A stretch of DNA of 64,000 nt. Origin: Rubrivirga sp. SAORIC476. Lineage in GTDB: Bacteria > Bacteroidota > Rhodothermia > Rhodothermales > Rubricoccaceae. Positions within the stretch are counted from its first letter, which is position 1. Each line of letters opens with the position of its first letter. The stretch lies in assembly GCF_002283555.1 (NCBI RefSeq), contig NZ_MVOI01000003.1, forward strand, positions 1,719,578 through 1,783,577. Direction: 5' to 3'. The translations under genes were made by a program, and so were the position numbers. Shown here one piece after another: positions 5,851-18,324 of this stretch. The notes under the pieces were generated by a model, which had not been told where the DNA came from, ran no database searches, and saw only the letters and a list, made by a program, of their open reading frames with translations.

Positions 5851-5887
5851 GCCGCATACATCGCTGTTCATTAGGGGTGTATGCGGC
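5851..5887. promoter_or_regulatory. Inverted repeat straddling the histidine kinase start
   Basis: Perfect 10-bp arms GCCGCATACA and TGTATGCGGC are separated by 17 bp, and the right arm includes the ATG at 5881. It could be an operator for the two-component system or an RNA hairpin masking that start, in which case the ATG at 5908 would be used. Confidence 0.45.
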
Positions 5888-6981
5888 CTCGCTCCCCAGG
5901 CGACCCGATGGTGCCCCGCTTCTCTCCCTTTCTGCACGCGCCCGGACTCGGCCTGTGGCTGGCGCTCGGCCTGCTCGCCGCCGCGCCGGCCGCCCAGCCG
6001 ACGGACCTCCCGACGCGGGGCGCAGTGGGGGAGGTCAGCAGCGGACTCCTGTACGAGTTCGAGACCCGTCCCGACTCGTCGGTCCTGATCCGCTCCAGCC
6101 GGGGCGACTCGCTCCGCATCGAGCCGTCGGCCCTTCGACGCATCTCGGCGGCCTACGGAGGCGACCTCACCGGCTCGGGCGCCGAGGTCCGGAGCGGCGT
6201 CGACATCGACGGCGGGGACCTGTCGCTCTACTACGCGCGCCGCATCCCGGTCCCGGTGGCGCTCGGCGTGTTCGGCCTCCTCACTCTGGGAGGGATCGCC
6301 TTCGCGGTCTGGGCGCTCCGGCGGATCGCCCGCGACGACCGCCGCAAGACCGAACTCCAGATGTACCGCCAGACGCTCGCCGCCGCCCGCGAGCGCGAGC
6401 GGCTCCGCATCGCGCGCGAGATCCACGACGGCCCCCTCCAGGCCCTCCACGCCCTCCGCCGCCTCCTGGAGGCGGACGGCCACACGGCCTTCGAGCAGGA
6501 CCTTCTGGAGATCGTCCGCGAGTTGCGGCGGGTTGTCGAGAACCTGCGTCCCCCCGCGCTCGACCGGTACTCGCTCGCCGACGCCCTCCGCTCCCTCATC
6601 CGCCGGTTCGAGCGCCACAACCCCGGCATCGAGGTCGATGCGACGCTCGCCGCCGACTCAGACGCCGTGGACGCCTACTCGGACGAGCTTCGCCTGACCC
6701 TCTACCGGCTCACACAGGAGGCACTCAACAACATCGGGGCTCACGCCCGAGCGCACCACGTCGAGATCGCCTTCGACGCCCGTGCCGACCGGTACGCCCT
6801 GACCGTCGGCGACGACGGCGCCGGGTTCGACCCGGAGCGCCACCCCGACGACGACCGCAGCCACTTCGGCCTCCTCGGGATGCGTGAGCGTGCCGAGGCG
6901 GTCGACGCCCGCCTCACGGTCGCCTCTCGCCCCGGCCACGGCACCCGCCTCCGCCTCGACGGCACGCCCCGCCCCGCCTGA
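5881..6981 (+). CDS. NarL-family sensor histidine kinase
   Basis: A 366-residue membrane kinase. A signal or first membrane segment (about 20-38) is followed by a short periplasmic stretch (about 40-122) and a transmembrane helix (about 124-147, VALGVFGLLTLGGIAFAVWAL). Next come the HisKA_3 dimerisation helix with H182 (AREIHDGPLQALH) and an HATPase domain containing QEALNNIGAHA and GDDGAGF. Autophosphorylation at H182 and transfer to the LuxR-type regulator 11 bp downstream is expected. The stimulus is unknown. An ATG at 5908 is an alternative start, and an inverted repeat covers the first ATG. Confidence 0.9.
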   Translation: MRPRSPGDPMVPRFSPFLHAPGLGLWLALGLLAAAPAAQPTDLPTRGAVGEVSSGLLYEFETRPDSSVLIRSSRGDSLRIEPSALRRISAAYGGDLTGSGAEVRSGVDIDGGDLSLYYARRIPVPVALGVFGLLTLGGIAFAVWALRRIARDDRRKTELQMYRQTLAAARERERLRIAREIHDGPLQALHALRRLLEADGHTAFEQDLLEIVRELRRVVENLRPPALDRYSLADALRSLIRRFERHNPGIEVDATLAADSDAVDAYSDELRLTLYRLTQEALNNIGAHARAHHVEIAFDARADRYALTVGDDGAGFDPERHPDDDRSHFGLLGMRERAEAVDARLTVASRPGHGTRLRLDGTPRPA

Positions 6982-6992
6982 CTCCCCCCCCC

Positions 6993-7616
6993 ATGCTCGC
7001 TTCCATCCGCGTCGTCCTCGTCGACGATCATCCGCCGATGCGCTCCGGCATTCGGGCCCTCATCGAGCGCGAGGCCGAGCGCGGCGGCTGGGCCGTCGAG
7101 ATCGTCGGCGAGGCCGGGACGGCCGAGCGGGGCCTCGACCTCGTGCGCAGCCTGAGCCCGAACGTCGTCGTGACCGACCTCGACCTCCCGGCCATGTCCG
7201 GCGTCGACCTCGCGCGGGCGATCCACGAGGAGGCCCTCCCGACTCGGGTCCTCGTCCTGTCCGCCTACGACGATGCCGCCTACCTCCACAGCCTCCAGTC
7301 ATGCGGAGTCGCGGGCTTCCTGACCAAGGAGAAGCCTGCCGCCGTGATCGCCGAGGCGGTCCGGGCCGTCTCGCGGGGCGAGACCCGCTGGTTCGTGATG
7401 CCCCCCGAGGACGCCCTCGCCGAGCTGACCGACCGCGAGGCCGAGGTCCTCCGGTCGCTCGCGGGCGGACGCTCCAATACCGAGATCGCCGACGAGCTGG
7501 ACATCTCCGAACACACCGTCCGCAACCACCTCACGAACGTCTACGAGAAGCTCGACCTGACGTCGTCGCGCGAGGCCGTCGCCTGGGCCTGGAAACACGG
7601 GATCGGCGAGAAATAG
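6993..7616 (+). CDS. LuxR/NarL-type response regulator
   Basis: A 207-residue regulator with an N-terminal receiver domain: acidic D11/D12, phosphoacceptor D62 in VVVTDLDLPAMSG, and Lys in FLTKEKP. A C-terminal LuxR helix-turn-helix follows (about 145-205, LTDREAEVLRSLAGGRSNTEIADEL). It is the partner of the kinase encoded just upstream and is co-transcribed with it. Target genes cannot be read with certainty; the inverted repeat at the kinase start is one candidate site for autoregulation. It ends with HGIGEK and a TAG stop, and no terminator hairpin is obvious. Confidence 0.93.
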   Translation: MLASIRVVLVDDHPPMRSGIRALIEREAERGGWAVEIVGEAGTAERGLDLVRSLSPNVVVTDLDLPAMSGVDLARAIHEEALPTRVLVLSAYDDAAYLHSLQSCGVAGFLTKEKPAAVIAEAVRAVSRGETRWFVMPPEDALAELTDREAEVLRSLAGGRSNTEIADELDISEHTVRNHLTNVYEKLDLTSSREAVAWAWKHGIGEK

Positions 7617-7931: not shown

Positions 7932-8675
7932 ATGACTGCCCCCCGCCGACGCTCTCCTGCCTCGCTTTCCCTCCTGCTCGCAGGACTCGTGCTCGCCGCG
8001 TGCGGCACCTCTCCGATGGGTCCGAGTGAGGCGCGACCCGCCCAGGTCGGAGACATCGTCGTTCGGAGTCAGGAGACGACCGCCGATGCGCCCCCGGCGC
8101 GTCTGACGGTCCGCCGGAGCGGCGGCCTGCCCGTCGTCCTCGACGCCGCCCGCCGCGGGACGTTCGACGCCTACTTCGACGTGGCCCTTCGCGCCGAGGG
8201 CGTCCTCGACCTGGACCTGGTCGACGCCGACCGCCCGGACCGCCGGGCCGTGCGTCTCCGCCAGACCCCGACCGACACCGGACACGACCTCCACTTCCTG
8301 CCACCGACCCGGACCGACCTGACGGTCGAGTACGTCGTCGAGGGCCGCGTCGTCCAGACCGAGCGCCACGTGGACGCCGACTCCGCCTCGTTCGGTGAGT
8401 CCGACGACTCCACCGAGTCGGTCCACTACTACCGCGACGGCGACGTCTACGTGATCGTCTACGACTTCACGGCCGACGAGCCCGCCTCGGTCACGACGCC
8501 CGGCGGCACGCCCGTCGAGCGGTGTACAGAGATCCGCGTCCGCCTCGACGCCGCCGTGCCCCCCCTCGACCGCCCCGCCCTCCGACTGAGCGGTACCGGC
8601 TGGGACGAGGTGCAGCTGGACGACGGGTCCGCGCGGCGCCTGGACACCCACCGGGTCCTGTCTCGCGCTCGCTAA
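7932..8675 (+). CDS. Lipoprotein of unknown function
   Basis: A 247-residue protein with a lipoprotein signal (SLLLAGLVLAAC, Cys at about residue 24). The mature part is acidic and predicted beta-rich with no motif I recognise. An Asp/Glu/Ser-rich stretch, SASFGESDDSTESVHYYRDG, lies mid-protein. One further Cys (VERCTEI) is present. It lies 45 bp before the CBM9/DUF5916 gene on the same strand and may be co-transcribed. No function is proposed. Confidence 0.75.
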   Translation: MTAPRRRSPASLSLLLAGLVLAACGTSPMGPSEARPAQVGDIVVRSQETTADAPPARLTVRRSGGLPVVLDAARRGTFDAYFDVALRAEGVLDLDLVDADRPDRRAVRLRQTPTDTGHDLHFLPPTRTDLTVEYVVEGRVVQTERHVDADSASFGESDDSTESVHYYRDGDVYVIVYDFTADEPASVTTPGGTPVERCTEIRVRLDAAVPPLDRPALRLSGTGWDEVQLDDGSARRLDTHRVLSRAR

Positions 8676-8720: not shown

Positions 8721-11342
8721 ATGACCCGCGCCCTCCTCCTCTCCCTCTCCTTCCTCCTCGCCCTCGGCGTGACCGCCCAGGCGCCTGCGCCCTCCGCGGC
8801 GGAGGCCGTGCGAGCGGACGACGGGTCGCTCGTGGTCCGCGCCCCCCGTGTCGACGTCGCCCCCACCCTGGACGGGCGCCTCGACGACGCTGCCTGGGCC
8901 GCCGCCCGTCCGGCCGATGGCTTCCGACAGCAGACGCCCCAGCCCGGCGCGGCGCCCGCGTTTCAGACCGAGGTCCGCGTCGTCCGCGACGCCGACGCGC
9001 TCTACGTCGGTGCCCGGATGCACGACAGCGCCCCGGACTCGGTGGTCGCCCGCCTCTTCCGCCGCGACACGAACGGCTACTCCGATTGGTTCACGGTCCA
9101 GATCGACAGCTACGACGACGACCGCTCGGCCTTCGCGTTCGCCCTCAACCCGCGGGGCGTCCGCCGCGACTACCTCCTCTCCAACGACACCCAGCAGGAC
9201 GACGACTGGGACGCCGTCTGGGACGGCGCCGCCGCGGTCCACGCCGACGGCTGGGTGGCCGAGATCCGCATCCCGCTCTCTCAGATCCGCTTCCAGAGCG
9301 GCACGCCCGAGTGGGGCATCAACTTCACCCGCCGGACGGCCCGCCTCGGCGAGACGAGCTCGTGGAGCCCGCTCTCGGTCCAGGACGACCGCTACGTGTC
9401 GCTCTTCGGCACCCTGGCGGGCGTGGCCACCGCCGAGCCCGGTCGCGGCCTCGAAGTCCGGCCGTACGCCGTCACCCGCGCCACCCGGGCGCCGGTCGTG
9501 GAGGGCAACCCGTTCGACGAGCGGGCCGCCCTTGCCAGCTCCGTCGGCGCCGACCTGACCTACCAGCTAGGCTCCGGCCTGACGGTGACCGCGACGGTGA
9601 ACCCAGACTTCGGGCAGGTCGAGGCCGACCCCTCGGAGGTCAACCTCTCGGCCTACGAGACCTTCTTCTCGGAGCGCCGCCCGTTCTTCCAGGAGGGCAC
9701 CGACATCTTCCAGACGACGGGCGCGACGCTCTTCTACTCGCGGCGCATCGGACGCGAGCCCTCCGCCATCGTGCCCGAGGCGCGCTACCTCGACGCCCCG
9801 GAGGCGTCGACCATCCTGGGGGCGACGAAGCTCTCCGGCCAGGTCGGCGACTGGAGCGTCGGCGCGCTCTCCGCGCTGACGGCCCGCGAGTCGGCCCCGT
9901 TCGTGACGGGGGCGGGCGTCGAGGGCGTCGCAGCGGTCGAGCCCGCGACCTCCTACAACGTCGTCCGCGCCCAGCGGCGCTTCCGCGACGGCGCCACCAC
10001 GGTCGGCGCGATCGGGACGGGCGTCCACCGGATGCAGCTCGACACGCCGTCCCTCGCCGACCGCTTGCCGGGCGACGCCGTCGCCGGCGGGGTCGACGTC
10101 AACCACCGCTTCGGCCAGGGCACCTACCAGGCCTTCGCCGCCGCCTTCGGCAGCTCCGTCAGCGGCTCGGCCGCGTCCATCGCCCGACTGCAGCGCGCCT
10201 CGGCCCGCTACTACCAGCGTCCCGACGCCGACCACCTCGCGTACGACCCCGAGCGCACCCGCCTCTCCGGCGTCAGCGCGCTGGCGGGCGTCTCGAAGAT
10301 CCGGGGCGCGTTCACCTACAGCGGCCTCGTGCTCGGGACGTCGCCGGGCTTCGAGCTCAACGACATCGGCTACCTCCGCCAGGCCGACCAGATCGCCCAG
10401 GAGGCGTCGGTCGCCTACACCCTGACGCAGCCGAGCCCGGCGGTCCGCTACCTCCGCCTCGCGCTCTACCAGAGCGCAGGCTGGACGTGGGGCGGCGAGC
10501 AGACGCTGCTCCGCCTCGCGCCCTCGGTCTCGACCACCTTCTCCTCGCTGTGGAGCGCGGCCATCAGCGGCGACTTCCGCACCGGCGCCCTCGACGTGGC
10601 CGCGCTGCGCGGCGGCCCGGCCCTCCGCACAGACCCTTCGGTGGGCGTCTCGGGCTCCGTGGCGACCGACCGCCGCCGCCCGCTCCGCCTCATCGCCGAT
10701 GGTGCCGCTGACTGGCGCCTCGGGACGACCGGCCGGTCGCTCTCGGCCGGGTTGGAGGCCTCGTACCGCCCCGCCCCGAACGCGACCCTCTCACTCCGCC
10801 TGAGTGGCGCGCACGTGTCCCGCCCAGACCAGTACGTGACCACCCGGAGCCGGGCGAGCGCTCTCGACTACGTCGTCGGCCAGTTGGACCAGTCCTCGGT
10901 TTCGGTCACGCTCCGCGGCGACATCGCCCTCACGCCCGACCTGACGGTGCAGCTCTACGCGCAGCCGTTCCTCGCTGCGGGCCGCTACGACCGATTCGCC
11001 CGGGTCGCCGACCCCGGCGCCCGGCGCCCCGAGGACCGCTACCGCGCCCTCGACGCCACCCTGGACACGGACGGCGCGGCCTACGCCGTCGACGCCGACG
11101 CGGATGGCACGGCCGACTACGCCATCGGACGCCCCGACTTTTCCGTCGCGGAGATGAACACCAATGCCGTCCTCCGCTGGCAGTACCGGCCCGGCTCGGC
11201 CCTCTTCCTGGTCTGGAGCCGCGGGCAGTCGCAGTTCGACCCCTCGGGCACCCTCGACCCCCTCAACGGCTTCCCGGACCTGTTCCTGGCCGAGCCTCGC
11301 GACACCGTCCTCCTCAAACTCAGCTACTGGTTCGGCGGCTGA
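8721..11342 (+). CDS. CBM9-like/DUF5916 outer-membrane protein
   Basis: An 873-residue secreted protein. A signal peptide (1-19, LLALGVTAQ) is followed by a CBM9-like N-terminal domain (about 38-220) with the usual PTLDGRLDDAAWAAA opening and DALYVGARMHDS. The DUF5916 region comes next (about 240-870), with YETFFSERRPFFQEGTDIF, and has beta-barrel-like alternating strands ending in the aromatic LKLSYWFGG. The family is common in Bacteroidota and thought to sit in the outer membrane, but its biochemical role is unsettled. It ends 43 bp before the first lanthipeptide precursor on the same strand, so read-through into that cluster is possible, but a functional link is not shown. Confidence 0.85.
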   Translation: MTRALLLSLSFLLALGVTAQAPAPSAAEAVRADDGSLVVRAPRVDVAPTLDGRLDDAAWAAARPADGFRQQTPQPGAAPAFQTEVRVVRDADALYVGARMHDSAPDSVVARLFRRDTNGYSDWFTVQIDSYDDDRSAFAFALNPRGVRRDYLLSNDTQQDDDWDAVWDGAAAVHADGWVAEIRIPLSQIRFQSGTPEWGINFTRRTARLGETSSWSPLSVQDDRYVSLFGTLAGVATAEPGRGLEVRPYAVTRATRAPVVEGNPFDERAALASSVGADLTYQLGSGLTVTATVNPDFGQVEADPSEVNLSAYETFFSERRPFFQEGTDIFQTTGATLFYSRRIGREPSAIVPEARYLDAPEASTILGATKLSGQVGDWSVGALSALTARESAPFVTGAGVEGVAAVEPATSYNVVRAQRRFRDGATTVGAIGTGVHRMQLDTPSLADRLPGDAVAGGVDVNHRFGQGTYQAFAAAFGSSVSGSAASIARLQRASARYYQRPDADHLAYDPERTRLSGVSALAGVSKIRGAFTYSGLVLGTSPGFELNDIGYLRQADQIAQEASVAYTLTQPSPAVRYLRLALYQSAGWTWGGEQTLLRLAPSVSTTFSSLWSAAISGDFRTGALDVAALRGGPALRTDPSVGVSGSVATDRRRPLRLIADGAADWRLGTTGRSLSAGLEASYRPAPNATLSLRLSGAHVSRPDQYVTTRSRASALDYVVGQLDQSSVSVTLRGDIALTPDLTVQLYAQPFLAAGRYDRFARVADPGARRPEDRYRALDATLDTDGAAYAVDADADGTADYAIGRPDFSVAEMNTNAVLRWQYRPGSALFLVWSRGQSQFDPSGTLDPLNGFPDLFLAEPRDTVLLKLSYWFGG

Positions 11343-11385: not shown

Positions 11386-11493
11386 ATGACCCACGTCCTC
11401 GACCTCCAGCGCCTCGTCCTCGACACCGACACCTCTACCGCCGTGTGGAGCGACGTCAGCATCGGCTGCACCGAGACCTGCACGCGCTACTAA
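11386..11493 (+). CDS. Class III lanthipeptide precursor 1 (divergent copy)
   Basis: A 35-residue peptide. The leader begins MTHVLDLQRL, carrying the hydrophobic-LDLQ box recognised by class III lanthipeptide synthetases. The core WSDVSIGCTETCTRY has Ser22-x2-Ser25-x2-Cys28, the spacing used for lanthionine/labionin rings. An extra Cys32 preceded by Thr residues could form a second ring. It differs from the three downstream copies mainly in the core. The ATG follows pyrimidine-rich DNA with no Shine-Dalgarno sequence. Confidence 0.85.
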   Translation: MTHVLDLQRLVLDTDTSTAVWSDVSIGCTETCTRY

Positions 11494-11612
11494 CCCCCCT
11501 CGTGCGCAGAGGGCCTTCCCTCCGCGCCTCCTCCTGTGACGGGCGACTGCCTGTCCAGACTGGTCCCCCGGATTCGCCGGGACGGCCACCCTTCAATCAA
11601 CCCCTCTACACC

Positions 11613-11726
11613 ATGAGCAACATTCTCGACCTCCAGCGCCTCGCCATCGACACCGACGAAGACGCCGGCTGGAGCACCGTCAGCGTCAACTGCAACAACA
11701 CCAAGGCCGAGGAGATCGGTCAGTAG
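11613..11726 (+). CDS. Class III lanthipeptide precursor 2
   Basis: A 37-residue peptide with leader MSNILDLQRLAIDTDEDAG and core starting WSTVSVNCNNTKAE. ILDLQ is the class III leader box. Ser21-x2-Ser24-x2-Cys27 is the ring motif, with Thr22 and Thr30 as further dehydration sites. It ends in EEIGQ, unlike copies 3 and 4, which end in EAEVGR. The single Cys allows one lanthionine or labionin ring. Confidence 0.88.
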   Translation: MSNILDLQRLAIDTDEDAGWSTVSVNCNNTKAEEIGQ

Positions 11727-11742
11727 ACCCCCTCGACTGGCG

Positions 11743-11761
11743 GGCGCCCATCCCGGGCGCC
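11743..11761 (+). promoter_or_regulatory. Hairpin between precursors 2 and 3
   Basis: GGCGCCC-ATCCC-GGGCGCC forms a 7-bp stem with a 5-nt loop and no T tract. It recurs after precursor 3 and probably marks the 3' ends or stabilises processed precursor transcripts. Confidence 0.5.
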
Positions 11762-11849
11762 ATCGCCACCCCTCCTGCGGCGAGTGATCGCCCAGATCGG
11801 CCCACCGGATTCGCCGGAACGGCCACCCTTCAATCAACCCCTCTACACC

Positions 11850-11966
11850 ATGAGCAACATTCTCGACCTCCAGCGCCTCGCCATCGACACCGACGAAGAC
11901 GCCGGCTGGAGCACTGTCAGCGTCAACTGCAACAACACCAAGGCTGAGGCCGAGGTGGGCCGGTAA
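11850..11966 (+). CDS. Class III lanthipeptide precursor 3
   Basis: A 38-residue peptide identical in sequence to precursor 4. The leader carries the ILDLQ box (residues 4-8). The ring motif is Ser21-x2-Ser24-x2-Cys27, and the hydrophilic tail is NNTKAEAEVGR. Upstream lies the same CAATCAACCCCTCTACACC block used by precursors 2 and 4. Two genes encoding the same peptide point to a dosage effect. Confidence 0.88.
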   Translation: MSNILDLQRLAIDTDEDAGWSTVSVNCNNTKAEAEVGR

Positions 11967-11982
11967 GGCGCCCTGACTGGCG

Positions 11983-12001
11983 GGCGCCCACTCCGGGCGC
12001 C
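11983..12001 (+). promoter_or_regulatory. Hairpin between precursors 3 and 4
   Basis: GGCGCCC-ACTCC-GGGCGCC is the same 7-bp stem as after precursor 2. It has no T tract. Confidence 0.5.
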
Positions 12002-12094
12002 ATCGCCACCCCCCCTGTGACGGGCGACTGCCTGTCCAGACCGGTCTCCCGGATTCGCCGGGACGGCCACCCTTCAATCAACCCCCTCTACACC

Positions 12095-12211
12095 ATGAGC
12101 AACATTCTCGACCTCCAGCGCCTCGCCATCGACACCGACGAAGACGCCGGCTGGAGCACCGTCAGCGTCAACTGCAACAACACCAAGGCCGAGGCTGAGG
12201 TGGGACGCTAA
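12095..12211 (+). CDS. Class III lanthipeptide precursor 4
   Basis: A 38-residue peptide with the same amino-acid sequence as precursor 3, differing only by silent or flanking bases. Class III leader box ILDLQ; core WSTVSVNC followed by NNTKAEAEVGR. It is the last precursor before a strong hairpin and the modification genes. Confidence 0.88.
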   Translation: MSNILDLQRLAIDTDEDAGWSTVSVNCNNTKAEAEVGR

Positions 12212-12300
12212 GACGCCCCGAGGCCACCGGACGCCCGGCGCTCCCGCGCCGCTGTCCGTCGGCCGCTCTCGCCCCACCGCGCCTTTTCATAGCCGCGTGT

Positions 12301-12352
12301 GGGGCGGGTGCCGGGGGGCCAGGATCCTTCCTCGCCCCCCGGCACTCGCCCC
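12301..12352 (+). terminator. Long hairpin between precursors and modification genes (probable attenuator)
   Basis: An 18-bp stem with one mismatch (GGGGCGGGTGCCGGGGGG / CCCCCCGGCACTCGCCCC) and a 16-nt loop. It is followed within 20 nt by a pyrimidine-rich run (CTTCTTTCTCTCTC) rather than a clean T tract. It lies 90 bp after the last precursor and 38 bp before the kinase-lyase start, the classic place for a leaky terminator that lets precursors be made in excess over enzymes. Confidence 0.65.
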
Positions 12353-12390
12353 GCGCCCGTCGCAGGCCCCCTTCTTTCTCTCTCTGCCCC

Positions 12391-13881
12391 ATGAGCGCCT
12401 TTCCCTTCGTCGACCCTCTCTACCACGAGCCCATCGGCCGGTACGCCCACTCGCCCGAGTTCGAGCGCGTCCTGACCGACGTGCTCCTCGAGAGTTGGTC
12501 CGTCGAGCGGAGCGGCGTCTGGATGGCCGCCCGGCCGCCCTGGCGACGGTACCCGGACCAGGGCTTCAAGCTCCACGTCTCGGCCGTCCCCGACGACGCC
12601 GAAGAGATCCTTCGCCGCGTCGCCATGATCTGTGGCGAGACGGCCACCGAGTTCAAGTGCGCCGCCGACCCGCGTCTGCTGAGCCACATCAACTCGAAGC
12701 GCGCCAGCCGAGGCTCGTCGGGCAAGTTCATGACCCTCTACCCGGAGTCCGACCACGCCTTCGAAGGACTGGCCGCGCGCCTCGCCGAGGCGACGGCGGA
12801 GTTCGACGGGCCCTACATCCTGTCCGACCGGCGCGTCCCCGGCAGCCGGTGCGTGTTCTACCGCTACGGCGGGTTCTCGCGCCGCTCGCGGATGCGCCCC
12901 GACGGGACGCGCGAGTACCTCATCCGCGGCGTCGACGGCTCGGACCTGCCCGACCGGCGGCAGCCCTTCTTCGCCCTCCCCGAGGGCATCGCGGACCCCT
13001 TCCCGCCCGAGGACGCCGCCAGCGGGGGCGACCTCCGTATCGGCGACCGATTCGAGATCCGGGAGGCGCTCGCGTTCAGCAACACCGGCGGCGTGTACCT
13101 CGCCACCGACCTCGCGACCGGCGCGGACGCGGTGCTCAAGGAAGCCCGCCCGCACACCAGCTCGTGGTCGATGCAGGACGGCTACCTCGACGCCGTCGGG
13201 ATGCTGGAGCACGAGCACGCCGTGCTGACCGACCTCGCCGGGACCGGCGTGACGGTCCAGCCGCTCGGGCTGCACCGCGCCTGGGAGCACACGTTCCTGG
13301 CCCAGTCGTTCGCCCCGGGCGAGCCCCTCCGGTCGTTCCGCGGGCGCCCCGAGATCATCCTGACGACCCACATGGACGACCCCGAGCGGGTCGGCCAGTT
13401 CTGCGGCGTGTTCCACACTGTCGCCCGTGGGCTGCTCGCCGCTGTCCGCGCTGTCCACGAGGCGGGCTACGTGATCGGCGACCTGTCGCCGAACAACATC
13501 ATGGTCGACGCGGACACGCTGGGCGTGACGTTGATCGACGTGGAGAGCGCGCACCGGCCCGACGACCGCGTGGCGACGCTGGCGCGAGGCTGGTACACGC
13601 CCGGCTTCCGTCCGCTCGACGAAGCCGGCCGCCGCGCCGTCACCCCCGCCGACGACCTGTACGCGGCCGGGATGGCCCTCTACAGCCTCGTGATGCCCGT
13701 CCAGCACTTCTTCCGCCTCCACCCCGAGGCCGCCCCGCGCTTCATCGACCGGTTCGTGGCGGCGGGCTTGCCCGAGGAGGTCCGCGACGTGATCGCGGCG
13801 CTGGCCGCCGGTGACGCCGACCGCGCGAGCGACCTCCTCGACACCTGGGCGCCCACGCTCTCTGTCCCCTCGTATGCCTGA
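12391..13881 (+). CDS. Class III lanthipeptide synthetase, lyase-kinase half (LanKC-like, cyclase domain missing)
   Basis: A 496-residue enzyme matching the first two domains of LanKC. Residues about 1-205 are the phosphoSer/Thr lyase-type domain (GFKLHVSA with K60 and H62, TEFKCA with K89, SGKFMTLYP with K112, and FYRYGGF with R158). Residues about 215-495 are a Ser/Thr-kinase-like domain: glycine-rich loop at 230-235, K250 in VLKEARP, catalytic D364 in VIGDLSPNNIM and metal-binding D383 in LIDVESAHR. It should phosphorylate Ser/Thr in the precursor cores and then eliminate phosphate. Usual LanKC proteins run on into a cyclase domain; here the frame stops and the cyclase is a separate overlapping gene (496 + 394 residues equals a normal full length). 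Confidence 0.9.
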   Translation: MSAFPFVDPLYHEPIGRYAHSPEFERVLTDVLLESWSVERSGVWMAARPPWRRYPDQGFKLHVSAVPDDAEEILRRVAMICGETATEFKCAADPRLLSHINSKRASRGSSGKFMTLYPESDHAFEGLAARLAEATAEFDGPYILSDRRVPGSRCVFYRYGGFSRRSRMRPDGTREYLIRGVDGSDLPDRRQPFFALPEGIADPFPPEDAASGGDLRIGDRFEIREALAFSNTGGVYLATDLATGADAVLKEARPHTSSWSMQDGYLDAVGMLEHEHAVLTDLAGTGVTVQPLGLHRAWEHTFLAQSFAPGEPLRSFRGRPEIILTTHMDDPERVGQFCGVFHTVARGLLAAVRAVHEAGYVIGDLSPNNIMVDADTLGVTLIDVESAHRPDDRVATLARGWYTPGFRPLDEAGRRAVTPADDLYAAGMALYSLVMPVQHFFRLHPEAAPRFIDRFVAAGLPEEVRDVIAALAAGDADRASDLLDTWAPTLSVPSYA

Positions 13882-15058
13882 ACCGATGCCCGTCGCCTCC
13901 GCCCCTCCCAGCCCCCTCACCCGCGCCACGCCCGACCCGGTCCCCGCGTTGCCCGACGCCGTCGGCCGCACGGTCGACTTCGTGCTCGCCACCGCCGACC
14001 CGGACCGTACGGACCGCCTGTGGCCCGCCGACGCGCGGGTCTACGACACGAACCCGCTCAACCTCGTCTACGGCGCGGCAGGCATCGCCCTGTTTCTCGA
14101 CGAGGTGACCGGGCGCGTTCCGGACGCCGCTCGGAGCTGGATGCTCGACCGCGTCCGCGAGGTGTCGCTGCCGCCGGGCCTCTACACGGGCGCGGCGGGC
14201 GTCGCCCATGTCCTCGCCCGCCTCGGGGAGGGCGCCGAGGCGGAGCGCCTGCTCGCCCGAGCCGCCCCCGCCGCCGCGGTCCTCGACGACCCGAGCCTCT
14301 TCCAGGGGCTCGCGGGCTGGGGCTGGGCGAACGTGGTGCACCACACTCGCACTGGACACGGCGACGCCCTCCAGCGCGCCGTTGACGCCGCGGAGCGCCT
14401 GATCGACCGCGCCGAGCGGTCGGACGACGGCTGGAGCTGGCCCTCGCCCGACGGCCCCGAGGGGCCGGTCCCGACGCCGCTGGGGCTGGGCCTCGGCGCC
14501 AGCGGCCCGGCGCTGTTCTTCCTCGCCCTCGCCCGCGCCACCGACGCCGTCCGCTACGGCGAGGCGGCGCGCAACGCGCTCGACTTCGAGCTGGCCCACG
14601 CCACGTCGGTCGACGGCGCGCTGCGGTGGGGCAGCGACGTCGAGTACGCCGGGTCGCGCCCGTACTGGTTCGGCGGGACCGCAGGCGTGGGGCAGGTCCT
14701 CGTCCACGCTGCCCGGGAGTTGGACGAGCCAGCCTACCTCGACGCCGCCCGCCGCGCGGCGGACGGGACCCGCGCGCTTCTGACGCCCACGCACGGGCGC
14801 ATGTGGGGGCTCTCCGGCATCGGCGAGTTCCTGCTCGACCTGGCCCACGCGACGGGCGAGGCGGTCTACCGGGAGCGCGCCTGCGCTGCGGCCGACGGCG
14901 TGCTCTGCTACCGCGTGGAGCGGCCCGAGGGGCTCGCCTTCCCGAGCCGCCACCTCCGCCGCCTCTCCAACGACCTCTCCACCGGCGCCGCCGGGTGCGG
15001 GCTGTTCCTGCACCGCGTCGCCACCGACACCCCCCGCGACCTCCTCGACCTCCCGTGA
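13874..15058 (+). CDS. Stand-alone LanC-like cyclase lacking zinc ligands (class III type)
   Basis: A 394-residue protein with seven GxxG-type inner-helix motifs of the LanC alpha/alpha barrel: YGAAGIALFL, YTGAAGVAHVL, FQGLAGWGWAN, LGLGASGPALF, WFGGTAGVGQVL, MWGLSGIGEFL and LSTGAAGCGLFLHRV. Zinc-dependent LanC enzymes have Cys after the Trp and a Cys-His-Gly. Here the equivalents are W265-F-G-G and M310-W-G-L, so no zinc site is visible, as in class III cyclase domains. It should close lanthionine/labionin rings on the dehydrated precursors. The ATG at 13874 overlaps the kinase-lyase stop by 8 bp; an ATG at 13886 is an alternative. It overlaps the ABC gene at GTGA. Confidence 0.88.
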   Translation: MPEPMPVASAPPSPLTRATPDPVPALPDAVGRTVDFVLATADPDRTDRLWPADARVYDTNPLNLVYGAAGIALFLDEVTGRVPDAARSWMLDRVREVSLPPGLYTGAAGVAHVLARLGEGAEAERLLARAAPAAAVLDDPSLFQGLAGWGWANVVHHTRTGHGDALQRAVDAAERLIDRAERSDDGWSWPSPDGPEGPVPTPLGLGLGASGPALFFLALARATDAVRYGEAARNALDFELAHATSVDGALRWGSDVEYAGSRPYWFGGTAGVGQVLVHAARELDEPAYLDAARRAADGTRALLTPTHGRMWGLSGIGEFLLDLAHATGEAVYRERACAAADGVLCYRVERPEGLAFPSRHLRRLSNDLSTGAAGCGLFLHRVATDTPRDLLDLP

Positions 15059-16749
15059 GCCCGACTCCCCCCTCGCTGTCCACCCGCGACCTCGCCCGCT
15101 GGGCGGCGCGCCACCTGGCCCCGCACAAGGGCCTCCTCGCCGTCGTGCTGACGGTCGAGGCGCTGGCGGCGGCCACGGCGGGCATCGTGGACCCCCTCCT
15201 GATGGCGGGGATCGTGGAGAGCCTGACCGACGGCGCGACGGGCCTGTTCGTGCGCCTGATCGTGGCCGCGGTCGTGGTCTCGACCGTGCTGCGCGGGCTG
15301 ACCTACGTCTCGTCGGTGGTCCACCGGAAGCTGACGAACGCGCTCACGGCCGACCTTGTGGGAAATGCGTTCGAGTCGTTCTCGGAGCGGGCCCCGGCGA
15401 AGGTCGCGGCCCACGAGCCCGGCTACCACCTCTCGCGCATCTTCGACGAGCCGCGCCGCGTGGCCGAGACGGTCCGCGTGGCGACGTCGATCGTGCGGAG
15501 CGCGCTGCTGGCGGTCGGCGCGCTGGGGCTGTGCCTGTACCTCGCGTGGGAGGTCGCGCTGGGCCTGGCCGTGGTGGTGCCGGTGCTCGTCGCGCTGTCG
15601 CGTCGGTACGGGGGCCGCGTGGCGGCCGAGACCGTCCGGGGCGATGAGGAGGAGGCGACGCTCCGGTCCCACGTGGGCCGTTCGGTGCGCGGCCACGTGG
15701 CCACGCAGACGTTCGGGCTGGGGGCGGTGGTGAAGCGCTACGTGGGCGGCGCGCTCGACCGGCTCCTGGCGACGCGCTACCGGCGGACGCGCGAGGCCTC
15801 GCGGCTGCGGTCGGCGAGCGCCCTCTTCCTGTCCTACGCCGAGAACCTCGTGCTCGTCGGCGCGGGCATCCAGGTGCTGCGCGGCGCCCTGACGGTGGGC
15901 GGCCTGTTCGGCTTCACGAAGGCGTTCTGGCACGTCGTCGGGGCGACGCGCAAGCTGGTGGACCTGCTGCCCGAGGTGGCGACGGCGAAGGGGCAGGTGG
16001 AGCGCTACCTCGCGTACACGACCGACGCAGCGAGCGAGGCGCCGAGCCCCTTCCACGAGGCCGACACGCCGGTCACGCTGCTCCGCGACGTCTCGTTCGG
16101 ACACGGCGCCGATGCCCTGTTCGAGCACCTCGACCTCGCCGTCCGCCCCGGCGAGCGGGTGCTGATCTCCGGCCCGAACGGGTCGGGCAAGTCGACGCTG
16201 GCGCGGCTGCTGGTCGGCGCGCTCGCCCCGACGGCGGGCCACGCGATCGTGCCGCCGCTGGCGTCGATCAGCTCGGTGCTGCTGCCGTTCGGTTTCCCGC
16301 CGGGCACGGTCCGCGAGTACCTCCAGCTGGACGAGCGGTCCGGCGTCGAGCAGGCACGCATCCTGCGCCTCGCGTCGCGGCTCGGGCTGGACCCTTTCCT
16401 GGACCGCGACCCGGATGGGCTCTCCCAGGGCGAGAAGCGACGCGTCCAGGTGCTGCTGGCCCTCACGAAGCGCGCGGCCCTCTACGTGTTCGACGAGCCC
16501 CTCTCCAACGTAGACGCCCGCGGCCGCGACCTGCTGATGGACACGATCCTGGAGGAGACCGAGGGCGCGGCGCTGCTGGTGATCCTGCACGGCGGCGACC
16601 GCTACCACGCGGCGTTCGAGCGCCACCTCGCCATCGACGGCGGAGCCGTCCGCGAGACGGCGACGTATGCGGGCGAGGCCGACCGCCCGGCGGCGTGGGG
16701 CGGCGGCACCCGGGCCCGGCGCGTGCGGACGCCCTCGGAGTCCGCCTGA
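15055..16749 (+). CDS. ABC exporter (permease-ATPase) of the lanthipeptide cluster
   Basis: A 564-residue half-transporter starting at a GTG that overlaps the cyclase stop (GTGA). Any longer frame would run through the cyclase gene. Membrane helices span about residues 20-310 (for example LLAVVLTVEALAAATAGIVDPL and LAVVVPVLVAL). The C-terminal ATPase has Walker A SGPNGSGKSTL, signature LSQGEKRRV and Walker B LYVFDEPLSNVDARG. No N-terminal C39 peptidase domain is present, so it does not cleave the leader itself. The likely role is export of the mature or leader-bearing lanthipeptides across the inner membrane; the outer-membrane route is not visible here. Confidence 0.88.
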   Translation: MSPTPPSLSTRDLARWAARHLAPHKGLLAVVLTVEALAAATAGIVDPLLMAGIVESLTDGATGLFVRLIVAAVVVSTVLRGLTYVSSVVHRKLTNALTADLVGNAFESFSERAPAKVAAHEPGYHLSRIFDEPRRVAETVRVATSIVRSALLAVGALGLCLYLAWEVALGLAVVVPVLVALSRRYGGRVAAETVRGDEEEATLRSHVGRSVRGHVATQTFGLGAVVKRYVGGALDRLLATRYRRTREASRLRSASALFLSYAENLVLVGAGIQVLRGALTVGGLFGFTKAFWHVVGATRKLVDLLPEVATAKGQVERYLAYTTDAASEAPSPFHEADTPVTLLRDVSFGHGADALFEHLDLAVRPGERVLISGPNGSGKSTLARLLVGALAPTAGHAIVPPLASISSVLLPFGFPPGTVREYLQLDERSGVEQARILRLASRLGLDPFLDRDPDGLSQGEKRRVQVLLALTKRAALYVFDEPLSNVDARGRDLLMDTILEETEGAALLVILHGGDRYHAAFERHLAIDGGAVRETATYAGEADRPAAWGGGTRARRVRTPSESA

Positions 16750-16787: not shown

Positions 16788-17375
16788 ATGGAGCCTCTCG
16801 AAGTCGCCGGCAACGTGTTCACGCTGGCGTCGGTAACCCTCGCCCGCCGCAACAGCGTCCACACGTGGTGGACGGGGCTCGTGGCGGTCTCGCTCTACGG
16901 CGTCATGTTCTTCGGCGTCAAGCTCTACGCCGACGTGGTGCTGCAGGTGTTCTTCTTCGGGACGTGCGTCGTCGGGTGGCGGCAGTGGCTCCACGGTGGC
17001 GCGGGCGGCGGGGAGCTGCCGATCTCGGACCTCACGGACCGCCAGCGGTGGATCGCCGGGGCGGCGGTGCTCGGCGCGGCGCTCTTCTTCGGGACGATGT
17101 TCGGGCAGTTCACGGACGCGGCGCTGCCCTACGCCGACTCGTACATCCTCGGCGGCAGCGTCGTCGCGCAACTGCTGATGATGCGCCGCAAGCGGGACCA
17201 CTGGTGGATCTGGATCACGGTCGACGGGGTCGCCATCGGGGTGTACGCGCTGAAGGGGTTGTACCTGACCTCGGCGGTGTACGGCGTGCTGCTGGTGCTG
17301 TGCGTGCAGGGCGTCGTGGAGTGGCGGCGGCTCTACGCGGCGCAGGGCATCGCCCCGGCAGATGCGGTACGCTAG
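16788..17375 (+). CDS. pnuC: PnuC-type nicotinamide riboside transporter
   Basis: A 195-residue integral membrane protein with PnuC hallmarks: NSVHTWWTGLVAVSLYG near the start, YADVVLQVFFFG in the second helix region, and SYILGGSVVAQLLMMRRKRD followed by WWIWITVDGVAIGVYALKG. About seven membrane segments are expected. It brings nicotinamide riboside into the cell, where the kinase/adenylyltransferase encoded by the overlapping next gene traps and converts it to NAD. The 14-bp overlap with nadR shows an operon. It is not part of the lanthipeptide cluster. Confidence 0.92.
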   Translation: MEPLEVAGNVFTLASVTLARRNSVHTWWTGLVAVSLYGVMFFGVKLYADVVLQVFFFGTCVVGWRQWLHGGAGGGELPISDLTDRQRWIAGAAVLGAALFFGTMFGQFTDAALPYADSYILGGSVVAQLLMMRRKRDHWWIWITVDGVAIGVYALKGLYLTSAVYGVLLVLCVQGVVEWRRLYAAQGIAPADAVR

Positions 17376-18324
17376 CGGCCTCGTCGTCGGCTCGTTCGCG
17401 CCGCTGCACCCGGGGCACCAGCTCGTGATCGAGACGGCGCGGGCGGCGTGCGACCGGGTGACGGTGATGACGTGGGCGAACCCCGACATCGCGACCATGC
17501 CCACCTCGGTGCGCGCGGGGTGGGTGCGGCGGCTCTACCCGGACGTGGAGGTGCTCGCGTTCGAGGCGGCCGAGTGCCCGCCGGACGACGCGCCGGACGC
17601 GGTGCAGCGGGCCTTCACAGCGTCCCGCCTTCCGCATCCCGTCGACGCGGTGTTCACGAGCGAGGCCTACGGCGAGGCGCTGGCGGCGCACCTCGGCGCC
17701 GTGCACGTTTCCGTCGACCCGGCCCGGGAGCGGGTGCCGTTGTCGGGGACGCAGATCCGGGCCGATCTTCCGGGCCACATGGAGCACCTCGATCCCGTCG
17801 TCCGCGCCCACTTCGTCGAGCGGGTCGTCTTCCTCGGCGCCGAGTCGACAGGCAAGAGCACGCTGGCGCAGGCGGTGGCCGAGGCGCTGGACGAGCCGTA
17901 CGTCGAAGAAGTCGGGCGGACGCTCTGGGTGGCGGCCGACGGCGACCTGCCGCTGGCGGACTACGTCACGATCTGCCGCGAGCACGTGGCCCTGGAGGAC
18001 GCGGCGGCGGAGCGGGCGCGGCGGTTCGTGTTCGTGGACACGAACGCCATCACGACCCAGCAGTACGCGTTCTTCTTCTTCGGCACGTGTCCCCCGGAGG
18101 TCCAGGCGTATGCCGACCGGTGCCGGGAGCGCTACACGCACGTGTTCGTCTGCGCGGCGGACATCCCGTTCGACCAGGACGGGACGCGGGTGCATCCGCA
18201 GGTGCAGCAGTACATGGACGGGGCGATCCGCAACGACCTGACGATCCGCGGGATTCCGTACACCGTGGTGGGCGGGACGCTGGCGGAGCGGGTGGCCGCG
18301 GTGCGGGCGGCCCTAGGGGCGTGA
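17362..18324 (+). CDS. nadR: NadR: NMN adenylyltransferase / ribosylnicotinamide kinase
   Basis: A 320-residue bifunctional enzyme. The N-terminal nucleotidyltransferase domain has LVVGSFAPLHPGHQLVI (HxGH-type site) and SGTQIRADL. The C-terminal kinase domain starts at the P-loop FLGAESTGKSTLAQAVA, about residue 153. It phosphorylates nicotinamide riboside and adenylylates NMN to NAD. It lacks the N-terminal helix-turn-helix of the enterobacterial repressor, so it is catalytic only. It is translationally coupled to pnuC. Confidence 0.93.
   Translation: MRYASGLVVGSFAPLHPGHQLVIETARAACDRVTVMTWANPDIATMPTSVRAGWVRRLYPDVEVLAFEAAECPPDDAPDAVQRAFTASRLPHPVDAVFTSEAYGEALAAHLGAVHVSVDPARERVPLSGTQIRADLPGHMEHLDPVVRAHFVERVVFLGAESTGKSTLAQAVAEALDEPYVEEVGRTLWVAADGDLPLADYVTICREHVALEDAAAERARRFVFVDTNAITTQQYAFFFFGTCPPEVQAYADRCRERYTHVFVCAADIPFDQDGTRVHPQVQQYMDGAIRNDLTIRGIPYTVVGGTLAERVAAVRAALGA

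Follow-up and report, generated by a model that had tools for sequence, protein, structure and literature searches.

The locus described here lies in a window of 64,000 nucleotides (nt), the whole stretch of DNA that was analysed, from Rubrivirga sp. SAORIC476. Positions 11386-16749 of this window, all on the + strand, carry a compact class III lanthipeptide locus composed of four precursor genes, three genes for enzymes and transport, and one strong hairpin. The precursor genes are LanA1 (11386..11493; 35 amino acids (aa), MTHVLDLQRLVLDTDTSTAVWSDVSIGCTETCTRY; leader box VLDLQ, core SDVSIGC), LanA2 (11613..11726; 37 aa, MSNILDLQRLAIDTDEDAGWSTVSVNCNNTKAEEIGQ; leader box ILDLQ, core STVSVNC), LanA3 (11850..11966; 38 aa, a near-copy of LanA2 with the same ILDLQ and STVSVNC motifs) and LanA4 (12095..12211; 38 aa, again with ILDLQ and STVSVNC), whose protein is identical to LanA3. 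They are followed by open reading frame (ORF) 1 (12391..13881; 496 aa), a stand-alone lyase/kinase that corresponds to the N-terminal half of a LanKC synthetase and combines a RamC_N phospho-Ser/Thr lyase with a Ser/Thr kinase domain, by ORF2 (13874..15058; 394 aa), a stand-alone LanC-like cyclase that corresponds to the C-terminal half of LanKC, and by an ABC exporter gene (15055..16749; 564 aa, GTG start) in which permease and ATPase are fused. An earlier interpretation made from the letters of the DNA (hereafter the sequence-only reading) had placed the class III-type precursor genes, the lyase/kinase, the LanC-like cyclase and the exporter at these positions, and all of them were recovered there. 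The overlapping stop and start codons that it had also noted are present between ORF1 and ORF2 (8 nt, ATGCCTGA, 13874-13881) and between ORF2 and the exporter gene (4 nt, GTGA, 15055-15058), whereas the precursor genes overlap with no other gene.

All four precursors contain the class III leader box (V/ILDLQ) together with an S-x2-S-x2-C core, which is the combination of leader box and Ser/Ser/Cys core required for class III. When both strands were scanned for ORFs of 25-60 aa with both motifs, exactly LanA1-4 were found in the 64 kb, and the same scan gave no ORF in 60 first-order Markov windows of equal size. LanA2 and LanA4 scored 34.2 bits with the NCBIfam model NF038154 for class III lanthipeptide precursors (curated cut-off 22), and LanA1 was below cut-off with 19.4 bits for NF038154 and 22.4 bits for NF038159. 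The set consists of MTHVLDLQRLVLDTDTSTAVWSDVSIGCTETCTRY and three near-identical MSNILDLQRLAIDTDEDAGWSTVSVNCNNTKAE... peptides. LanA2-4 are located inside direct repeats of 171 nt, spaced 237 and 245 nt apart, with the LanA3 copy being 93% identical to the LanA2 copy, and therefore the precursor array has been expanded by tandem duplication. The LanA precursors can also be aligned with precursors from Deinococcus, and the motif WST-x-S-x-x-C is common to both.

Database models and structure prediction agree on the identity of ORF1. It matched PF25816 (RamC_N) with an E value of 3.7e-59 over profile positions 6-184 of 191, the Pkinase model staying below its cut-off, and it matched positions 3-460 of the 833 positions of NF038151 (class III LanKC) with 432 bits (E 4.7e-129), compared to 341 bits for NF038150 (class IV LanL). 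By sequence, the nearest solved structure in the PDB is ThurKC (E 2.3e-49). The predicted structure of ORF1 (predicted local distance difference test, pLDDT, 87.6) had whole lanthipeptide synthetases as its top four PDB matches (Z 28.4-32.1), with a Z of 32.1 to CuvL and of 28.4-29.3 to ThurKC over 423-441 residues. Residues of ThurKC that had been tested by mutation (PMC10604976) were transferred to ORF1 by sequence alignment. All eight lyase residues of ThurKC (K65, H67, K94, K108, K117, D152, R163 and R191) are present in ORF1, as K60, H62, K89, K103, K112, D146, R158 and R190. Among 89 relatives, seven of these show little or no variation, and K103 is retained by 78. The kinase residues K250, E275, D364, N369, D383 and E385 are present as well, with the DFE motif reading DVE. 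ORF1 is thus a RamC_N-type lyase joined to a Ser/Thr kinase, with the active-site residues expected for class III.

ORF2 matched PF05147 (LANC_like) over profile positions 3-342 of 350 (E 5.6e-23) and the C-terminal part of NF038151, positions 479-833 of 833, with 242 bits (E 1.5e-71), and its score for NF038150 was again lower (204 bits). For both enzymes the LanKC model was the best match, ahead of unrelated kinases or glycosidases. The predicted structure of ORF2 (pLDDT 90.6) gave a Z of 40.6 to CuvL and of 39.5-39.6 to ThurKC, and the first glycosidase barrels appeared at a Z of about 25. In the columns where class IV LanL carries Cys/Cys/His as zinc ligands, the same alignment places F266, M310 and W311 of ORF2. 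The absence of zinc ligands is what is expected for class III, which requires a LanC-like cyclase without the Cys-Cys-His set. The assignment to class III by the sequence-only reading is supported by NF038151 on both halves, by the fold, by the eight of eight ThurKC lyase residues and by the missing zinc ligands.

In one respect the locus departs from its class. In its textbook form LanKC is one chain of about 860 aa and, by definition, the synthetases of classes III and IV are each one trifunctional protein. Here, the three domains that should reside on a single LanKC polypeptide are encoded by two genes. This division of the synthetase into a lyase/kinase gene and a cyclase gene is the unusual feature of the locus, and although the sequence-only reading had listed two separate enzymes, the split was not recognised there as anything out of the ordinary.

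As a frameshift would produce the same appearance, genome contigs were searched for relatives. A scan with single sequences found none; an alignment-based scan gave 189 relatives, of which the best 80 were retained, plus plasmid loci. When 60 relatives were searched using ORF1 in full length, generic kinases were all that was returned, and the lyase part alone was then used as query. Among the best 80 of 189 relatives and the plasmid loci, LanKC is almost always a single long ORF, and the majority of the relatives that score highest with the window are split. In a Caldilineaceae metagenome-assembled genome (MAG; L027) the two proteins have 513 and 413 aa, and in Streptomyces hiroshimensis (L038) 517 and 384 aa. 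In Nonomuraea cypriaca (L029) the lyase/kinase has 501 aa and the cyclase gene is on the opposite strand, and in Nonomuraea sediminis (L030) the precursor and kinase genes are preceded by the cyclase gene. A Flavobacteriales MAG (L028) possesses a fused synthetase of 894 aa. A leader-box ORF directly precedes the synthetase in all ten relatives scanned except L029, for which the contig has a masked stretch, so that homologues of the small genes do occur next to similar enzymes in other genomes. In another locus, L034, the open frames look split but read as a frameshift within a fused gene, and it was not counted; likewise, L082 and L062, with out-of-frame cyclase matches, were left out of the split count. 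A Salipiger plasmid (L108, 4893-6464) encodes a lyase/kinase that stands alone and has the lyase residues. LanC was not matched anywhere within about 5 kb of it, and this might be another split or a cyclase-less system.

In a tree of the joined lyase/kinase and cyclase sequences, the window, L027, L029, L030 and L038 form one clade together with the fused L028 (support 100/99), and the same clade is obtained from the halves alone (support 97 for the lyase/kinase and 92 for the cyclase). An exclusive clade of the split members was rejected (approximately unbiased test, p 7e-08), as the fused L028 nests within them, and therefore either L028 was re-fused once or the split arose more than once. 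Since the clade spans Actinomycetota, Chloroflexota and Bacteroidota, the tree suggests that this split-containing lineage was spread by horizontal transfer. In the case of Rubrivirga, a recent acquisition is not supported by composition, as the GC content at third codon positions (GC3) of the cluster is 0.95 in ORF1 and ORF2 and the same in neighbouring genes. Within the phylum of the window a full lyase match was found in 1 of 395 sampled genomes, in line with the rarity claimed by the sequence-only reading, and weak RamC_N matches occurred in two more. One of these (L023, 544-1947, - strand) is a RamC_N-like protein of 467 aa with a kinase and no LanC part, in which the K-x-H lyase motif is absent by eye; the other (L024, 952-2118) is a RamC_N-like ORF of 388 aa, without a LanC part and by eye without a kinase. 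Both were set aside on account of the missing K-x-H motif and kinase, respectively, and the former suggests a use of the RamC_N fold outside lanthipeptide synthesis.

The exporter matched ABC_tran (E 2e-18), with ABC_membrane below cut-off. No peptidase family was matched by this protein, the C39 domain included. The sequence-only reading had considered the lack of a local leader protease as the mark of a new branch, but class III clusters of actinobacteria usually have no local protease (PMC7268733), and Deinococcus plasmids carry operons of the same layout. Nor is class III new to Gram-negative bacteria or relatives of the Bacteroidota, as had also been proposed, because Luteibacter, Deinococcus and the Flavobacteriales MAG have class III systems too.

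Between LanA4 and the lyase/kinase gene a hairpin (12294..12359, + strand) with arms of 31 nt, 84% complementary, and a loop of 4 nt was found. RNA folding over 12285-12375 gave -68.3 kcal/mol (z -8.0), and none of 200 shuffles was equally good. Smaller GC-rich hairpins are located 3' of LanA2 and LanA3 (z -2.5 and -3.1). The large hairpin could be an attenuator or a processing site and may hold the synthetase transcript at a lower level than the precursor transcript. Upstream on the same strand are genes for a sensor histidine kinase (5881-6981), a LuxR-type response regulator (6993-7616) and a lipoprotein-like ORF (7932-8675). By analogy with the Deinococcus clusters, which are flanked by a LuxR-type regulator, these genes might regulate the cluster. 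A gene for a DUF5916/CBM9 protein (8721-11342) stops 43 nt ahead of LanA1 and is probably outside the cluster, since paralogues are common among the genomes of the family. Downstream (16788-18324), the gene for a PnuC nicotinamide riboside transporter overlaps that for a NadR-type kinase/adenylyltransferase. This pair is conserved in three relatives, and in these the stretch upstream of the pair gave no match to the lanthipeptide genes of the window.

We interpret the locus as a class III lanthipeptide operon in which two naturally separate proteins, acting as a non-covalent complex, make up the synthetase, and assign this reading, complex included, a probability of roughly 0.8. For ThurKC it was shown that the lyase-kinase part alone makes no dehydroamino acids and that the cyclase is also required, while the covalent link between them is dispensable (PMC10604976). 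From this result in trans a non-covalent complex of ORF1 and ORF2 is predicted, in which the cyclase would be needed even for dehydration. The naturally split systems agree with this prediction, as does the overlap of the two genes in the window. In the proposed sequence of events, which is modelled on ThurKC (PMC10604976), the leader helix of a LanA peptide (I/VLDLQRL) would dock in ORF1, in the groove that separates the lyase from the kinase domain. The kinase would phosphorylate Ser/Thr residues in the W-S-T-V-S-x-x-C core, after which the lyase would eliminate the phosphate to give dehydroamino acids. The zinc-free ORF2, on which the activity of ORF1 would depend, would then add the Cys thiol to yield lanthionine, or labionin if the enolate attacks the second dehydroalanine. 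Finally, the peptide would pass through the inner membrane by way of the ABC exporter, and the leader would be cut off by a housekeeping peptidase encoded elsewhere. A broader proposition, on which we are evenly divided, is that there exists a separate, horizontally spread synthetase lineage with free dehydratase and metal-free cyclase subunits that assemble on the leader, the cyclase being an obligatory trans activator of dehydration.

Several points speak against our interpretation. The position of D771, the residue proposed as thiol or general base in ThurKC, is occupied by W311 in ORF2 and by Glu or Ser in most clade members, and therefore cyclisation could be weak or might use another residue. 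The exporter has only 25-28% identity with the Deinococcus exporter found at the same operon position, and nothing like it lies near the genes of the four split relatives. In addition, the window sits on a long branch, of length 1.08 in the cyclase tree and 0.87 in the joined tree.

If a single LanKC gene had been broken by a frameshift, either through a sequencing error or in a decaying pseudogene, two ORFs might also result. In Deinococcus, LanKC is one polypeptide of about 895 aa, and ORF1 and ORF2 together have 890 aa; L034 looks like exactly such a case. However, the split is also seen in four close relatives, and no frameshift can explain the cyclase and kinase genes on opposite strands in L029 or in reversed order in L030, and it is these rearranged genes that lead us to reject a frameshift or assembly artefact. 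The junction in the window, moreover, coincides with the domain boundary and consists of a stop/start overlap, the GC3 of both genes equals that of their neighbours, and the tested lyase and kinase residues are all intact. A broken gene is thus scarcely credible, and the split is genuine and shared across the clade.

Given two true genes, ORF1 might dehydrate alone and ORF2 cyclise later, as independent enzymes without an obligatory complex. The free gene order within the split clade would fit such an arrangement, but the lyase-kinase of ThurKC needs its cyclase in trans (PMC10604976), and although this is one fused enzyme from another phylum, a guide and not a proof, we consider independent action unlikely. 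Very unlikely, in our opinion, is a vestigial ORF2 with a product that is only dehydrated or in which the ring closes without an enzyme. The absent zinc ligands, the Trp in place of the proposed Asp base and the existence of class V examples without a dedicated cyclase (PMC12328550) could be cited for it. Metal-free LanKC cyclases are active, however (PMC10604976), and ORF2 is confidently predicted to adopt the LanC fold, with a Z of about 40 to the cyclase domains of active synthetases. We therefore retain the reading of a two-protein synthetase that works as a complex.

As a class III lanthipeptide locus it is of a known kind, and the novelty lies in the split synthetase, which we find moderately surprising. 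No description of a split LanKC was found in the open-access literature, which is weak evidence of novelty as subscription papers were outside the coverage. The cut-off of NF038151 is 575 bits and is missed by ORF1 (432), by ORF2 (242), by both halves of L027 and L038 and by the lyase/kinase of L029. A large mining study called class III or class IV only when kinase and LanC were on one protein (PMC7268733), and split clusters would therefore have landed in its 'unclassified' set. We infer that split loci have been overlooked because their halves fail both the cut-off for LanKC naming and this mining rule, and the existence of a naturally split clade points to an underestimate of their number. 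The present case extends class III to the phylum of the window (the single genome among the 395). Separate subunits make it possible to test the control that the cyclase exerts over dehydration, a question left open by the work on ThurKC. They also constitute a two-part toolkit for new cyclic peptides; if the lineage with free subunits is real, subunits could be exchanged between precursors.

By its sequence the locus has the features of class III except for the single polypeptide, and it belongs to none of the other lanthipeptide classes that were compared. Class IV was rejected because of the absent zinc ligands and the lower scores of NF038150 than of NF038151 on both halves. Class V systems with LanK/LanY/LanX (lexapeptide, cacaoidin; PMC12328550) resemble the window in having steps on separate proteins, but there kinase and lyase are themselves separate, whereas in ORF1 they are fused in a LanKC-type match, and class V was therefore discarded. 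Similarly, LanKCb of class VI (Streptococcus; PMC10676316) is LanKC-related but has truncated lyase and cyclase domains, whereas both are full length in the window (the RamC_N match spans 6-184 of 191 profile positions and the LANC_like match 3-342 of 350), which argues against class VI. No class I or II dehydratase family (LanB or LanM/DUF4135) was matched by the proteins of the locus. About 0.27 Mb away in the same genome (G000:C3:2003099-2004127; L114, 1489-3891, - strand) lies a class II LanM-type ORF with DUF4135 (E 3.8e-77) and LANC_like with a WCHG motif, and therefore this genome carries two unrelated lanthipeptide systems.

Among class III systems, ThurKC (PDB 8sao/8sam/8sap; PMC10604976) shares with the window the three domains and their order, the active-site residues of lyase and kinase, the zinc-free cyclase and leader recognition without a RiPP recognition element. 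In contrast to the two genes of the window, ThurKC is one polypeptide, and the window lacks a cyclase base of the D771 type. The plasmid clusters of D. gobiensis (P4, NC_017792) and Deinococcus sp. QL22 (NZ_CP097152) have the same operon plan, with tandem WST-x-S-x-x-C precursors, a synthetase, an overlapping ABC exporter and no local protease, but their LanKC is fused, 36-38% identical and outside the clade of the window. Plasmid P4 of D. gobiensis (L025, 5882-6753) has six precursor ORFs whose cores read WSTVSN[HY]C, and only two of them are annotated in the gene table of the record. The split relatives resemble the window in carrying lyase/kinase and LanC genes separately and, in the case of L027, L030 and L038, in their Sx2Sx2C precursors, whereas they differ in a lyase/kinase that is about 38-43% identical to that of the window, in their variable gene order and in having no similar exporter adjoining the synthetase genes.

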